Source of the DNA: Tetradesmus obliquus
Lineage: Eukaryota; Chlorophyta; Chlorophyceae; Sphaeropleales; Scenedesmaceae
Length of the DNA: 64,000 nucleotides
Assembly (NCBI GenBank): GCA_030272155.1
Contig: CP126193.1
Coordinates: 3,348,001 to 3,412,000, forward strand
Direction of reading: 5' to 3'
Under the pieces are notes generated by a model. The model worked only from the letters and a program-made list of their open reading frames with translations, was not told the origin of the DNA and did not search any database. The position numbers and the translations under genes are program-made. Positions 388 through 22,235 of the stretch are shown here, piece by piece (the first letter of the stretch is position 1; each line of letters begins with the position of its first letter).

Positions 388-1104
388 CAGCACGACTGCT
401 GAGCAGTTGGAGGCAGCTGCCAGCCAGCTGCTGGCACACTGCCAGGCAGGGCTGCCTGCGCCTGTGTCATATAACGTCATTCTAACAAGGGAGCTGATGC
501 TCATGGTGCCGCGCAAGCAGGAGTCCTGCGGACGCATTGCCATCAAGTGAGTGCATGCAGGTTGCAGTGCGGAGTCGGCATGGCAGCAACCTTGGTGAAG
601 GAAAGGGACATTGTACTGGCGCGCTCCATGCTGTGTTGTTGATGCCACTGCAGCAAGTAGTGTCAAGTTGACTGTTGGGGCATGCCAAGGCCTGCACGTT
701 CCGTCATCAGTCGACGGATGGATCAGAGTTTGATGCAACCGTTGCAGACGCCTTCTGCTTCCAGTGGAAGCACCTGCAGAGCATGTGAAGCTAACTGCTT
801 TGCAAGCTGTTTTGATGGCATGCTGCAGCTTGAGCTCATGTGCAGACCGCATCACTAGACTGCTTACACACATCGAGATGCAAAACCTCTGTCAACATGT
901 AACACCCTTGTTCACTCATTCTAGAACTACTGCTGCTGTGCCGTGGCATGCGCCGTCTACTTCTGCAGCTCGCTTGGCTTTGCTGGCACCATCCTGCTGC
1001 GCTCCCAGGATGACCTGCAGTTCACGCAGCAGCAGGGGCCCATGAGCATGCTGGCTGAAGTGGGGCATCCGTGGAGCAGTGAGCCCGCAGAGGCAACGAT
1101 TTGA
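1..1104 (+). CDS. Ap4A phosphorylase / ATP adenylyltransferase, C-terminal part (partial)
   Basis: This is the 3' end of a gene entering from the left edge, with exons 1-50, 391-546 and 969-1104 (TGA at 1102-1104); both joins keep phase. The product reads QLPFRAYAVALD, then SYNVILTRELMLMVPR, then NSLGFAGTILLRSQDDLQF and GPMSMLAEVG. This series is typical of the C-terminal domain of yeast-type Ap4A phosphorylase II, which splits diadenosine tetraphosphate phosphorolytically into ATP and ADP. The HIT-like catalytic His motif would lie upstream, outside the window. The first intron holds two tandem repeats, one running up to the acceptor. Family assignment is by motif memory. Confidence 0.8.
195..258. 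repeat. 16-bp tandem repeat, four copies
   Basis: Four imperfect 16-bp units ending in CCAAAGC follow one another inside the first intron of the Ap4A phosphorylase gene. Confidence 0.8.
342..385. repeat. CCTG microsatellite at a splice acceptor
   Basis: A tetranucleotide run of CCTG units, broken once, ends about 5 bases before the acceptor of exon 391-546. It takes the place of the usual polypyrimidine tract. Confidence 0.85.
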
Positions 1105-1676
1105 GAGAAGCATCTTCTGTGGTGTTGGCTAGGCTAGTCAGCAAATGAACCCGGGACACCACAGATGTGCCGACAACCCAAGATCCTGACTGCGTGTACT
1201 TGCTCCATCTCCTGCAAGCAACCCTCTTTCGCTTTCTAGTTTTTATTGAGGGACGTATTCATTCGTGCTGTGCGCATCCAGGTGAATCAGTTGAACAGTT
1301 GTGTCCCACCGGCCACACGGCGTGCGTGCACGTGCGCTTCAGCTGTTTCTCTGGGCTCGACGTAGTTCACTATGGCTGAAAGATGTGCAACACAGTTTTC
1401 AAGGGGGAATCACTCTGCATATGCGGGCGTCACTGAGTGTTCGCAGGGACAAGACCCTGCACATCATGCCGCGTCGTCAACGGTTTGCTTCTGACCTAAT
1501 CCTTCAAAGGCTAAGTCGATAGCCATTCAGCGAGTGACGAGCAACTTTGAATTGGCGAATGGTGCATGTCTTCAACAATGAACGACGCTCAGTCATGCAA
1601 CAGCTAGACTAGCCTGAAATATCGCAGTGCTGCGTGAGGCACCGTACGGAAAGCGATAGCAGCGGCACCAGCCATC
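1105..1676. other. Intergenic, no gene seen
   Basis: This is the 3' flank of the Ap4A phosphorylase gene and the 5' flank of membrane gene A. Short open frames here show no recognisable domain. Confidence 0.6.
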
Positions 1677-3283
1677 ATGCTGTTGTGCTTCTCTGATACA
1701 AGAGCCGAGCAGGCGTTTCAGCTTCATTATGGCTGGCCGGCGTGCGCAGTGGGCCTCGCCACAGCCTCCATGGGCTTGCTTGCTCATGCCATGTACCTGC
1801 TGCGCGCGCTGCTGCTGCCTGATGAGGTGTGTGCATTCGCTCCCCAATTCTGGCACTTTGCACCTTCAATGGCAGCTGGAGCATTCTAATTGACGCTGTA
1901 TGCTCTGCTGGGATGGAGCCGCTTTGTTGTGGGCAGGGGATTGCACAGCGTGTGGCACCGCCTCCTGTTTGCAACAGATGTGCTGTTTTACAGCAGGCCC
2001 GGCAGCTGTGCTGCAGCAGGCTACTGCCAGATGCTGTGGCAGCACCGGCTGTTCCTAGTGCACTTGGTGGGAGCAGTAGCACGCGTGCCGTGTGGATGGT
2101 ATTGGTTTGGTGGTGCAGTCAGCTGGCTGGTGGCTGTTGCTGTTGATGTGGCGGACCCTGGTGTGGCATGCGAGTCGATTGTGTGTGTGCTGGCAGCATT
2201 TCAATATCAGGCAGCAGCAGATCCGTGGCAGTTGTTATATGACGTGCTGTACACCTCTGTCCGTAACAGCCGCGTGTTTGCTGTGGACGTGGTGCTGCCT
2301 GGCCTGCTGGTGACGTGGCTTGAGCTGAGGGCGCGCCGCGCCTGGTGGCAGCAGCAGCAGGCACGGCAGCAGCAGCTGCAGCAGCAGCTGCGGAGCGAGG
2401 CAGCGGCACACAAGAAGGAGCAGCAAGCAACAGTTGCGGCAGCAGCAGCTGCGTCACCACCACCAGCAGCAGTGCCGTCCAGCAGCCGTAGCAGCTGCAG
2501 CGCCATAGCAGCGCATGAAATGCAGCAGCAGCGGAAGCAGCAGCAGCAGCAGCCTGCGCCATCAACTGCAGCTAGCTCAGCTTCCAGGAAACATCATGTG
2601 CTCAGTGCTCAGCAACAGGCCGATGCAGGCAGTGCTGACTCTGTAGCACCGTTGCTTGATGCGGATGCAGCACCAGCACCAGCACAAGCTGCAGCGCCTG
2701 GCGGTGGCGCAGCTGCGAGCATGCGGCCAGCAGGCATGCCTCTGCACCGTGCTGCACTGGAGCTGCCTCTACAGAACCTGGCAAGTGTAGTGCCGGGTCA
2801 GCAGTTGCGCAGCGTGGTGTACCGCAGCCCGGTGAGGCGGTGCATCGCCAGCCTGAAGTTCAGCAAGAAGCCAGGCTCAGGTGAGCTAAGGAACAGTGGC
2901 TGGCAACGGCTTTTACAGGTACTGCATGCGCCTGCTGTTGGTGCGATGATGGCAGGCGAGGTGTTTTGGGACGGCGCTGCGCTGTGTTGACAGCTCACAA
3001 ACCAACAGAGCAGGTTGATGCAGGATGCAGGATCGTGTCAGCAGTGCCTCTTGATATGATGGTCGTCTACTGCAGCAGCATGCTCGTTCAGTGCTGCTAG
3101 AGAGGTGTCAGGTTGCAGTCTTTAACTGCTGACAAGCTGCTGTGTCATTTTGTGAATGATGGTCGCTGCTGGCGCAGGCACACAAGACGGTACAGTGTTC
3201 CAGCGGCAGCTGGCAGCTGCAATTGCAGCTGCTGTGCAAGAGGCATCAGCTACAGCACGTGATGCTGCTCATATTGCGCCTTC

Positions 3284-3317
<34 letters not shown>

Positions 3318-4298
3318 ACAGCAGTGATGGTCACAGACATGGCTGCCTTCCCTGGCTGCTGGCAGGTGGTCATGCACCTGGTGCTGCCGCAGAGCCAGTT
3401 TGTGGATGTCACGTGTGACATCCAGCTGCAGCAGCTGCAGCAGCAGATGCAGCATGCAGCACTGGCAGTGCTGGCAGCCTACCCAGCAGACTGCAGCTTG
3501 CTGAGTGCACTGCTGCAGCCCGTCGCGTGTGGAGCTGCAGCAGCAGCAGCAGCAGCAGCAACAGCAACAGCGCTGCCAGTGATGGGATCAACAGGGGTGG
3601 CTTCGGCTGCTACCAGCAGTGCTGCTGCTGGTGCATTGGTGGTCGCTGCCATGCCTTGCGTGTACATGCAGCCTGTGGTGTTGGCTCTGCCAGACATCAG
3701 TGACAGCAGCAGCAGCAGCAGCAGCATTGACAGCAGACTTGCAGCTGGTGCCAATGCGGAGGCAGAGGTCAACGTGTGCATTGCGCAGTCAACTTTAACG
3801 CAGCTGCTGGCGGCTGGTCAGCGCAGTGTGCGTGTGGTGGTGACATCACCGCAGCCAGGGGAGCCACCGCTGCTTGATGAGACATGGCAGCTGCCACCAA
3901 CTCCAGAAGCAGTGGCGGATGGTCTGCGCCTGCCTCTGCAGTTGCAATTCAGCAATGTGCAGCAGCACCTGCAGCAGGCAGTTGCATTGTCAGTGGTTGT
4001 ATTAGCTGGTGGCAGGCCGGAGGGCGCTGCACACTGCAGCACCAGCTGGTCTACATGCAGCGGGGACAGCAGACCACAACAGCACTCCACATGCACCTGC
4101 TGCAATCGTGGCGAAGCTGCCACTGCTATTGCTGCCCAGCGGTGCAGCAGCAGAGCTGCAGCAGCTGTCGACAGCACTGGCAGATGCAGGGATGCACCCA
4201 GCTGCAGCATACCAAGATCTGCTGCCGCTGCTGCAGGACCTGTCTGTTGTGCTTATGAACAGCAGCACCAGGACCCATGTTCACGGCAGTGCAGCAGC

Positions 4299-17833: not shown

Positions 17834-18167
17834 TCAGGCAACACCAATGGCCCGGGACAGCTGCGCATCGACTGCAGGACTGCCAGCCCCTGCAAGCCCA
17901 CCCACAGCAGCCACACCACCAGCAGCAGCAGCAGCAGCAGCACTCTTTCCTGCAGCCTTCCTGCCAGGGGACGCAACGCCGCCATTGGCTGCTGCTGTTG
18001 CCGGTGGCCACGCTGCAGGGGCATCAGGCAACGCAGTGCCGCTGCTGCGGCTGGGGCTTGCAGTGTGTGTTGCTGCAGCAGCACTGGCCAGCTTTGGTGT
18101 CACTTCTGACAGCTGCGGAGGTGAGGCTGAAGGTAGCTGCGTGGAAGCAGGCACATCACTGCTGCTG

Positions 18168-18175
18168 TTGCTGCT
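18168..18175. repeat. 8-bp target site duplication, left copy
   Basis: TTGCTGCT directly abuts the left terminal inverted repeat and matches 22228-22235 exactly. Eight bases is the hallmark length for hAT insertion. Confidence 0.95.
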
Positions 18176-18193
18176 CATAGTTGCACGAAACGT
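18176..18193 (+). repeat. Left terminal inverted repeat of the hAT element
   Basis: CATAGTTGCACGAAACGT is the exact reverse complement of 22210-22227. Confidence 0.95.
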
Positions 18194-18425
18194 GGGGTCC
18201 GGCTGTTTATGAAACGAAACGAAACGTTTAAAACGTGCGTTTTAAACGCCTTCAGTGTGAAACGCTGTATCTAAACGGCAGCTCTAGTGGGGCTCAGGCG
18301 TTTGAATGCAGAACCCCTCGTTACTCGGCCTAGCGGCCCGTTCAGGTACTCAGGGCTCTTCAAAACATTTACTGTATATCTTTGTTGGTATTTGAATACT
18401 TGTTGTTCTCCTATCAGTCACCGAT

Positions 18426-21228
18426 ATGGGCAAGAAGACCACTGATCAGGCTACCATAGCCTGGCAGAATGTTGACAAGCTAGAGGAAAGAAACAACTAC
18501 AGCAAAGTTGTATGCAAACACTGTGATCACTCCTTCAGCGGTGGGGCCAGCAGGATCGTTTCGCATTTGCTCGGCACCGGCTCGGGTGTGAAGGCCTGCA
18601 GCAAGTGCCCAGAGGATGTCAGGACTCGCCTGTCAGCTGCCAAGGCTTCCACTGATGCCTCTAAGAACGCAAAACGGAAGCGGGAGGAGGAGGTTGAGGC
18701 CATCAAGAACCGCCAAGTTGACAAGGTGAGTTGTTGTTGAGCAGCAGTGAGCAGGGCACAGAGCAGTGAGTGCCAGCCTCTGCCTTCAGATTATACAGCA
18801 GCAAAAGCAGCAGCGATATCAGCAGTTACCAATATCCTTGTTGGTCTTCCCTTGCAGGAAACTGCAGCAGCCAGTGCTTCTGGCAGCAGTGTTGCTGCTG
18901 CTGCCAGCAACCAGGGCAGCAACGACAAGACGGAGCAGCGCGCCATTGTTCGTGCATTCAAGCGTGCTAGGAGCAGCGCTGCTGACAAGGCCATCATGAA
19001 GTTCTTTGCCTGTGAGGGCATCCCCTTCAACAAGGCCAGGAGTTCTTGGTGGAGGGAGCTGATCAGCGCAGTTTCAGCAGCTGGACCTGGCTATGTCCCA
19101 CCAACTTACAACGCCATGCGCAGCACTCTGCTGGACAACCTCAAGTCCAGCACGGAGTCTGAGCTGCTGCTGTTTGACATGCGCAGCAAGGACACCATGG
19201 TGTCCCTGTGCAGCGATGGCTGGACTGATGTCGCCAAGCACCCCCTGCTGAACGTGCTGGCTGTCAACCCCGTTGGCGCCAAGTTCATCACCGCCGTCAA
19301 CACAGAGGGCGAGGTCAAGTCAGGGCTGTACATTGGTGGTGCCCTGATTGAGTGCATTGAGGGCATTGGCCCTGAGCACGTGGTGCAGGTGGTGACTGAT
19401 GGAGCAGCAAACTGCGCTGCTGCTGGCCGCATCATCATGGAGAAGTGAGTGCTATGCATGTGTCTGTGTAGGGGGATGTTGTAGTGAGAGGCGCATGCGT
19501 TTGTGCATGTGTTCAGCAATTCCTGCAGCTCTGCAGCTGTTGTGCAGGCCAATGTCAGCTATGTTGTTGTGTTACATTTGTGTTGCTTTCTGTTAGTACT
19601 TGTTGTTTTTATCTTTACATGCTACTGCAAGCATGCTGCATGCAGCTGGTTGCCTGCCACTTGTTGTCTTCTGCTTGTTGCCTGCTGCTTGCTGCCTGCA
19701 TGCTGCCTGCTGCTATCTGCCTGCTTGCATCTATATCAACCCACACACCAGCAGGGTTGTTGTCATATCCTGTGCTCGCACACCGCACTGCTGCCAACTC
19801 ATCCATGTATGCTACGTTGCGCTGATCTGCCATGCCACTGGTTTCCAGGTACCCGCACATCACCTGGACCATCTGCACTCCACACGCCATTGACCTGACC
19901 CTGGAGGAGATCTTTGCAATTGGGCCCTTCGATGAGCTGATCAGCAAGGCCAAGCGCGTGGTGATGTTCATCAACAATCACCAGCAGACCCTAGCAGCAT
20001 ACCGCGCACTGGAGGAGTCAGTGTTGGCACTGCTGAAGCCTGGAGAGACCCGCTTTGCCACTTCCTTCATCATGCTGCAGCGCGTGCACAAGCAGTCCTC
20101 CCACCTGCAGCGCCTGGTGGTCAGCCAGGGCTGGCAATCTGCTGTGGCGCGCCTGACTGCTGAGGACAGGGGCAAGGCAGCTGAGATCAAGCTGGTCATT
20201 TTGGATGACAACTTCTGGGAGGAGGCCAAGGAGGTGTGTTGCTTGTTACCATGCTCTTGGGGCTGTGCACAGCAGGCAGCCTATCTTGCGGTTGGTGTAA
20301 TGCACATACCTGCACGCAGTAATAACTTTTCTGTAGCAGCATTTATGTGTGCTTGTTGCATGGCTGCCAGCAGCAGTGATACATTCAGTTCGTCTGCAAT
20401 AGCTTCCTACTTCAATGGTCTCACATTGCTCTTACTCCCGCTTGCTGCCACTGCTGTTGCTACTGCCTCCGCCCTCTGCCGCAGGCCATGGACGTAGTGG
20501 AGCCGCTGGTGAGCCTGCTGCGCCTGGCAGATGGCACTGCACCTTGCATGGGCAAGATCTACTACAGGATGAGCAAATGCCTTGAGCATGTGCGCTCTGG
20601 GCAGCACAAGCTGGATGCAGGTGTGCTGGAGGAGGTCGCAGATATCATCAGCAACCGCTGGGAGTACCTGCACAGCCCTATGCACGGCGCTGGCTACTGC
20701 CTGGACCCAGAGTTCTGGAGTGATGCTGGCAAGAACGCAGAGTGCATGGGCAACCTGATCACCATGGTTGAGCGGCTGCTACCGACACCAGCTGAGCGCA
20801 AGGCTGCACGTGAGCAGTTCGTCATGTACAAGAACAGGGAGGAACTGTTTGCTGTGCATGGTGCTGCTGTACAGGACGCCCCCTCCATGCCAGCAAACCA
20901 GTGGTGGGGCATGTATGGCAGTGGCTGCAAGGAGCTGCAGCGGGTGGCGGTTGCGGTGCTGAGCCAGGTCAGCGCTGCCGTGTCATGCGAGCGCAACTGG
21001 TCAACATACGACTACATCCACAGCAAGAAACGAAACAAGCTGGCACCTGCACGCGCGCGGGACCTGGTGTACATATTTAGCAACCAGCGCCTGCTGCGCA
21101 AGCTCAACTCTGGCACCCACCAAGAGGAGTTTGTGCCTTGGGACAGTGAGGATGAGCAGGAGGCAGATGCTGCTGGTGGTGGTGATGGTGATGATGAGGA
21201 GGAAGAGGGGGTGGAGATTGTGGAATGA
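18426..21228 (+). CDS. hAT transposase (BED finger, DUF659-like, hAT dimerisation domain)
   Basis: Four exons (18426-18725, 18858-19444, 19849-20233, 20485-21228) give 671 residues with every join in phase. Residues 1-75 form a BED-type zinc finger (CKHCDHSFSGG ... HLLGTGSGVKAC) that should bind the element ends. The RNase H-like core shows Asp220 in CSDGWTD, Asp281 in VTDGAAN and a candidate catalytic Glu593 in SCERNWSTYDYIHS. The last block begins the hAT C-terminal dimerisation region, which continues NKLAPARARDLVYIFSN. An acidic tail rich in Asp/Glu closes the protein. The enzyme would cut and paste the element in the nucleus. No stop or frameshift is seen, and length fits autonomous hAT transposases (600-800 residues). 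Confidence 0.93.
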
Positions 21229-22209
21229 AGCAGCTGTAATGCATCTTTGGCTGTGGTGCGAGTGCATGTGTTGGTGTCTGCAGCAATGCAACAGCAACAT
21301 TGGTCATGCAACCAGCTGGGTTGCTGGTGTTGCTTTTGCTGCTTGCTGCTTGCATGGGTGTGATGCATAGGAGTGGAGTCAGCTGCCATGAGCAGCTGCA
21401 TGTCTTGTGAGTGCCGCTGCATGCTGTGTTATTTGGCATGCTCATGAGCAGCAGCATCAGCAGCAGATGCGCTGCAACATGCCAATGCTTGCTGCTCAGT
21501 GTCTGTTGTGTTTCAGCCAGCATGGTGCTGAGGTTTGGATGATTGTGCATTGAGTCCAGCAGATTAACACAATGACATTTAATGTGTCGCGACTCTGCAA
21601 CTATGTTTACAGTTGCTTGTGTGTGCAGCAGGAGGTGTGCAGGTTGCTCAGCTCTGTTCCTGTAACCAGTGGTCGCTGCTTTCTTGGTAAGAGACTCAAC
21701 TGCTGCATTAGTAATGTTGCCAGTTTGCTTCTTTGCGTAAACCTTGGGATGAAAGCTCATCCCTGATACGCCGAGCAGCCCTCCAGCTGCTGTGGTGCCT
21801 CGCTGCACATGGTCCGTGGACATCAACGCATTCACACGATATCACGATAATAAGTAGATTACGCACTGGCACCTCAATTCATTTTGACTTTGCGAAGAGC
21901 TGTCGTGCGACGATCGCCAAGTATGTTCAAGTGTTGGAGCTGTACTGCTGTCAACTAGTCAAGCCTGCTGCCGTGCCTTGGCAGCCCTCCAAGCCCGGCA
22001 GGCACAGTTCTGGGGTCAATTAATGACTATAAAGACTAGTATTGATCATTTACAAACAATTAAAATGCAAAGAATTGATGTAACTGGCCTCTACATGCCT
22101 CTAGAGTGCATACTGTGACATGGCGTTTCAGCAGCGTTTCAGCAGCGTTTCAGTCCAGGCACTGGCGTTTTAAACGCGTTTAGAAACGAAACGTTTCGTT
22201 TCAAACGAA
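21229..22209. other. hAT 3' non-coding region
   Basis: About 1 kb lies between the transposase stop and the right terminal repeat. A TGTAA motif a few bases after the stop may serve polyadenylation. The last 100 bases carry tandem CAGCGTTT and AAACG units. Antisense open frames here show no known domain. Confidence 0.6.
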
Positions 22210-22227
22210 ACGTTTCGTGCAACTATG
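22210..22227 (-). repeat. Right terminal inverted repeat of the hAT element
   Basis: ACGTTTCGTGCAACTATG is the perfect inverted partner of 18176-18193. Confidence 0.95.
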
Positions 22228-22235
22228 TTGCTGCT
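22228..22235. repeat. 8-bp target site duplication, right copy
   Basis: TTGCTGCT is identical to 18168-18175. Confidence 0.95.

Follow-up and report, generated by a model that had tools for sequence, protein, structure and literature searches.

Is the transposon-like sequence in this stretch of Tetradesmus obliquus DNA a complete hAT element, and has it moved recently? The window, by which we mean the whole 64,000-nucleotide stretch that was analyzed, lies on contig C3 of a 104.66-Mb assembly of 17 contigs (G000). An initial annotation had placed a complete, apparently autonomous hAT transposon at 18168-22235. The locus was right, but this span includes the flanking duplications, and the element proper occupies 18176-22227. 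Its non-coding features are as follows.

18176-22227, plus strand: hAT element, 4052 bp (inverted ends and base-identical copies elsewhere)
18168-18175, no strand: left target site duplication (TSD) TTGCTGCT (perfect 8-bp repeat)
22228-22235, no strand: right target site duplication TTGCTGCT (perfect 8-bp repeat)
18176-18193, plus strand: left 18-bp terminal inverted repeat CATAGTTGCACGAAACGT (perfect match to right end)
22210-22227, minus strand: right 18-bp terminal inverted repeat (perfect inverted match to left end)
18176-18305, no strand: terminal 130 bp on the left, containing 11 AAACG/CGTTT sites (motif count)
22098-22227, no strand: terminal 130 bp on the right, containing 13 AAACG/CGTTT sites (motif count)

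The perfect 18-bp inverted repeats and the perfect 8-bp target duplication were thus found as claimed. Among all window pairs of perfect 18-bp inverted repeats lying 0.5-10 kb apart and flanked by a perfect 8-bp repeat, the element was the only one. GAAACG was dense near both ends, as had also been reported: counting both strands, there were five copies in the left subterminal region and nine in the right, compared to two inside the element. The 11 and 13 AAACG/CGTTT sites per terminal 130 bp compare to 0.12 expected from the rate in the rest of the window, and four sites lie between the two terminal stretches.

None of the six flanking ORFs matched Pfam, so the insertion could not be tied to a named host gene; Rfam at gathering thresholds gave no match anywhere in the window. 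Intact element ends read outward ...CAACTATG, so that insertion places an ATG at the host junction. On the minus strand at window 17834-18178, the ATG of the left end opens a 114-codon frame that runs into the flank, and the whole frame had no Pfam match.

The coding capacity of the element is distributed over four predicted exons.

18426-18725, plus strand: transposase exon 1 (C30, C33 and H47; zf-BED match at 13-55 below cut-off; from Pfam and the open frame)
18858-19444, plus strand: transposase exon 2 (most of DUF659; catalytic candidates D220 and D281; from Pfam and known motifs)
19849-20233, plus strand: transposase exon 3 (final part of DUF659; motif CTPH at 305; from Pfam and the open frame)
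20485-21228, plus strand: transposase exon 4 (hAT dimerization domain at 559-624; candidate E593; from Pfam and a weak Hermes alignment)
21226-21228, plus strand: transposase stop codon TGA (from the open frame)

In agreement with the earlier call of a four-exon, 671-codon frame, the predicted coding sequence specifies 671 amino acids and its sole stop is terminal. All three predicted introns (132, 404 and 251 bp; phases 0, 2 and 0) are GT-AG. The coding sequence has a G+C content of 58% (71% at third codon positions), the introns one of 50-51%. DUF659 (PF04937) matched amino acids 182-333 over the whole profile (1-152 of 152; 124.4 bits against a cut-off of 34.7; E 4e-36). This match extends across codon 296, where exons 2 and 3 meet, and so supports the intron between them. 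We infer that the four-exon frame is spliced as predicted, the evidence at introns 1 and 3 being splice signals and the open frame. The hAT dimerization domain was also borne out, as Dimer_Tnp_hAT (PF05699) matched amino acids 559-624 (33.4 bits against a cut-off of 21.4; E 3.9e-8). The proposed BED finger fared less well: the region of C30, C33 and H47 does match zf-BED (PF02892), but its score of 13.0 bits falls under the cut-off of 20.6, and the finger is not confirmed. From known motifs, we take D220, D281 and E593 as candidates for the catalytic triad; of the three, E593 alone is covered by an alignment to Hermes, and that alignment is weak.

By its domain matches, which like the ends, the duplications, the copies and the open frame are read directly, the element is a member of the hAT superfamily with DUF659, a kind already known. 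With ends, target duplication and frame all intact, the window copy merits the description of complete and apparently autonomous, and it carries no sign of decay, with the sub-cut-off BED finger as the one reservation.

We determined whether the genome contains evidence of recent movement, which the initial annotation had proposed unless other copies proved to be missing. The window copy is one of 37 that we examined directly, the others being 36 fetched copies (L009-L044); counts from the genome search are lower bounds. With up to 3 mismatches allowed in 17 positions, both ends were located in 34 of the 36 fetched copies, and two 58-bp matches of 81-83% identity (C5 1443152 and C14 3229015) are outside the set. 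Nineteen of the 37 belong to subfamily A, with GAAACG at the ends, and 18 to subfamily B, with TAAACG. L010 and L011 equal the window copy at every base over 4052 bp, while L012 is equal over 4051 bp and differs at the last base only. L009 has zero substitutions but is missing 49 bp, a deletion that removes the acceptor of intron 3 together with the first part of exon 4 and shows a 2-bp microhomology. A protein search with exon 4 recovered the whole query at four loci (the window, L010, L011 and L012), residues 13-231 in L009, and a broken stretch in L014. Five 978-bp derivatives (L015, L016, L017, L020 and L022) are mutually identical and sit at five sites with five distinct TSDs; L018 and L024 have a common deletion junction at separate sites.

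The 8-bp TSD was perfect in 27 of 35 end-complete copies, a set that leaves aside L014 and L021, in which the right end was unrecognizable. The eight imperfect cases are L011, L012, L025, L027, L029, L035, L037 and L039. Known target preferences of hAT clades (Ac-like, Buster-like) are nTnnnnAn or nnnTAnnn; of the 27 perfect duplications, 7 have T at position 2, 13 have A at position 7, 8 have T at position 4, and 7 have A at position 5. L025 (C16 870110-871059) has both ends intact and no target duplication. In L013 (subfamily A; C17 2722890-2727551), all three coding substitutions in exon 1 change the amino acid. This copy is a deletion derivative with a nested insertion of ~2.7 kb at locus positions 726-3452; the insertion has CTATGGTCACCGAGATGTCCAGCTGCATGTCC in inverted orientation at its ends, and its longest listed stop-to-stop frame is 143 amino acids.

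Because of the near-identical copies, the identical 978-bp derivatives and the 27 of 35 perfect TSDs, we read the copies as a recently active family with deleted passengers, and the element is very probably an autonomous, recently active hAT transposon, much as the initial annotation had supposed. Under an assumption of star-like descent, arithmetic on the four substitution-free sites (~16 kb) would bound divergence since separation at ~2 in 10,000 substitutions per site (95%). The family may also be active at present. A burst that has recently been silenced, with copies that are young and hence intact but no longer expressed or mobile, is possible but unlikely; the evidence comes from sequence alone, in one assembly, and the copies that agree base for base over 4 kb, together with the identical derivatives, place the last activity very recently and go no further. 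That the identical copies arose by segmental duplication instead of transposition is scarcely credible. Although L010 and L011 have 965 bp of flank in common, most copies match the query from the first element bases and not within the 75 bp of left flank that it included, and L009, L012 and the window copy have differing TSDs, so that their own duplications contradict this origin for all but L010/L011.

Since they have this flank in common, L010 and L011 cannot count as wholly independent insertions. The segment C3 1384273-1389290 matches C3 1494179-1499196 in reverse complement, with 100% identity over 5018 bp that comprise the element and the 965-bp flank. At the second place (L046, 1494179-1499269), the 965-bp flank leads into a surplus 75-bp element end, and next to that end comes AAAAAAAC, the 8 bp also present to the left of L011. 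Ectopic repair and a 105-kb inversion are the probable origin of this arrangement (loci L045 and L046). An element at AAAAAAAC would have broken and been repaired from the copy at GATTCCCC, past the element end and into the flank; the repaired element would have joined its own 75-bp remnant with a 2-bp overlap; and crossing-over between the inverted copies would have turned ~105 kb. We regard an assembly error as the less plausible account: 5-kb inverted repeats at 100% identity can cause the interval between them to be mis-oriented, but a wrong orientation would create neither the duplicated 965-bp flank nor the 75-bp extra 3′ end with its half of AAAAAAAC.

Six of the 19 subfamily A copies are on C3, which makes up 7.8% of the assembly (binomial 0.0025, a single-contig test among 17); with L010/L011 counted once, the figure is 5 of 18 (binomial 0.010, likewise for one contig among 17). 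hAT elements are known for short-range movement, with which the excess would be weakly consistent.

Subfamily B differs from A most in the 3′ part, where identity between the two is 80.8-84.6%, compared to 90.5-93.9% in the 5′ part. All 18 fetched B copies are internally deleted, with lengths of 675 to 1007 bp, and neither these copies nor the exon 4 protein search of the genome revealed an autonomous member. As no transposase of subfamily B came up in that search, either the B master has gone from the assembly or A moves the B copies. Comparison of exon 1 between six B copies and A gave pS of 0.115-0.136 and pN of 0.022-0.038 with no stops, values that amount to roughly a single comparison because several of the copies are near-identical (L027 and L030 are identical and others nearly so). 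This suggests that subfamily B descended from a coding element kept by selection.

The initial annotation had proposed a search for empty sites carrying a single target copy. When 27 joined flanks were compared with the fetched locus sequences, one paralogous empty site was recovered, for the B copy L030. This copy lies inside a minisatellite, and a neighboring unit (L030:59-259), 87% identical to the joined flanks, continues across the insertion point with a single site copy, GCCCCAGT in place of GCCCCAGC. The same comparison contained no empty site of the window copy. The many matches given by L040 were dropped, as its flank is a CAG-type simple repeat.

Some element-host junctions carry odd palindromes. 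In hAT cutting, as known from work on Hermes, the nick is expected one base into the flank, which is then hairpinned; off-center opening of such a hairpin leaves an odd palindrome whose center is the first base of the TSD or the complement of that base. Palindromes of this type, with at least two predicted bases, were present at the junctions of 6 of the 37 copies (L012, L021, L029, L035, L037 and L039). At eight junctions (one each in L012, L027, L029 and L035, two each in L037 and L039), the hairpin model accounted for 31 of 38 filler nucleotides (null mean 2.45, maximum 11 in 20,000 draws), and at the right end of L012, the left end of L029 and the right end of L035, 14 of 16 were predicted (null maximum 7 in 20,000); these null counts overstate significance, since the test was devised after the junctions had been seen, the amount lost from element end and TSD was set separately for each junction, and L037, L039 and L027 were given TSDs that suit the model. 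The TSD was read from the opposite end only for L012, L029, L035 and L021. L037 is scarred on both sides, and its two scars give the same TSD, CCGCTAGT. In L039, the right end is predicted at 4 of 4 positions and the left end has one unpredicted base. At the right side of L021, where the 3′ end is eroded, 6 of 6 filler nucleotides fit and the reconstructed right TSD differs from the left at one of 8 positions.

The remaining irregular copies fall outside these six. L027 was rejected as a hairpin scar, its 1 nt being uninformative; L025 fits neither a hairpin scar nor an L011-like rearrangement; L014 is a truncation, and L011 is part of the C3 rearrangement.

Since the element is still resident at each scarred junction, we read the scars as cutting followed by religation, like the open-and-shut joints that are a product type of V(D)J recombination. 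We lean, with some reserve, toward a history in which the transposase cut one or both ends of these six copies, the flank hairpin opened off-center, and the same element was religated in place, making the junctions counterparts of V(D)J open-and-shut joints. The palindromic filler, interpreted post hoc, is indirect evidence for host-flank hairpins during excision. It is improbable that the palindromes stem instead from small mutations of unrelated origin, from targets that were already palindromic or from microhomology repair, as the TSD predicts the filler base by base and insertion into a palindromic target would still yield matching 8-bp duplications. Points in favor of such an origin are the shortness of some filler, 2 nt in L012 and 1 nt at the left end of L027, the misfit of L025 and the left end of L039, and the palindromes with arms of 7-8 that flank the perfect-TSD copies L036 and L040, although these are centered elsewhere. 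A targeted literature search of limited coverage gave no match for hairpin or palindromic scars at hAT ends, and their absence in print is unproven. If cut-and-religate scars are what the junctions record, abortive excisions would leave a countable fossil record that can be read from assemblies alone, and the scars would link hairpin formation by hAT elements with V(D)J-like joining in the host.

A mechanism that would accommodate these observations begins with a transposase whose DUF659 region forms the catalytic core, joined to a hAT dimerization domain and using DDE chemistry. The protein may bind the subterminal AAACG repeats and would cut at the 18-bp ends, leaving the host flanks hairpinned; the element would insert through an 8-bp staggered cut, and internally deleted copies may be mobilized in trans. 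A hAT family that is intact and recently mobile, and that has a defined autonomous form besides its deleted passengers, is a candidate for use as a tagging tool in its host; it also offers a case for asking whether one transposase moves two subfamilies, A and B.

How does the family compare with known systems? In the same genome, the exon 4 protein search gave four distant matches of 25-30% identity, L053-L056 (on C4, C12, C16 and C5), which probably represent at least one further hAT family. All four carry, in addition, a short match that resembles a finger (CxHCxxSV...RxKxHLL or a similar pattern). Related loci were sought in viral contigs with six peptide patterns, and none matched. Among solved structures, the PDB matches at E ≤1 were four transposase sequences (E 0.37-0.56), two of which carry the name Hermes; the other two, labelled just TRANSPOSASE, are presumably Hermes as well. 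The dimerization region can be aligned with that of Hermes, with CERNWS opposite SERTFS, but the match is weak (best E 0.37) and confined to residues 561-624.

Gulliver of Chlamydomonas reinhardtii and Vc hAT-1 of Volvox carteri are predicted autonomous hATs of green algae, and the common ground, by description alone, is membership of the hAT superfamily in green algae (PMC6027215). As the initial annotation suggested, the family may be an undescribed one among algae. A closer likeness is to Ace, a hAT of the haptophyte Tisochrysis lutea, for which strain-specific or new insertions in a cultured strain are reported (PMC10138859). Like Ace, the element described here combines PF04937 and PF05699 with an 8-bp TSD and occurs as few autonomous and many deleted copies; unlike Ace, which measures ~2590 bp, ends in 12-bp repeats and has a single 713-amino-acid ORF (PMC10138859), it has 4052 bp, 18-bp ends and four exons encoding 671 amino acids. 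For the junction scars, the comparison is with Ac/Ds of maize and Ds in Arabidopsis, where hairpin-type scars occur at excision sites, and with one Ds where a 598-bp inverted repeat adjoins one end of the element, within its target duplication (PMC1978519). The Ac/Ds scars in that account are empty-site footprints or the 598-bp inverted repeat, whereas the short palindromes described here adjoin elements that are still resident (PMC1978519).
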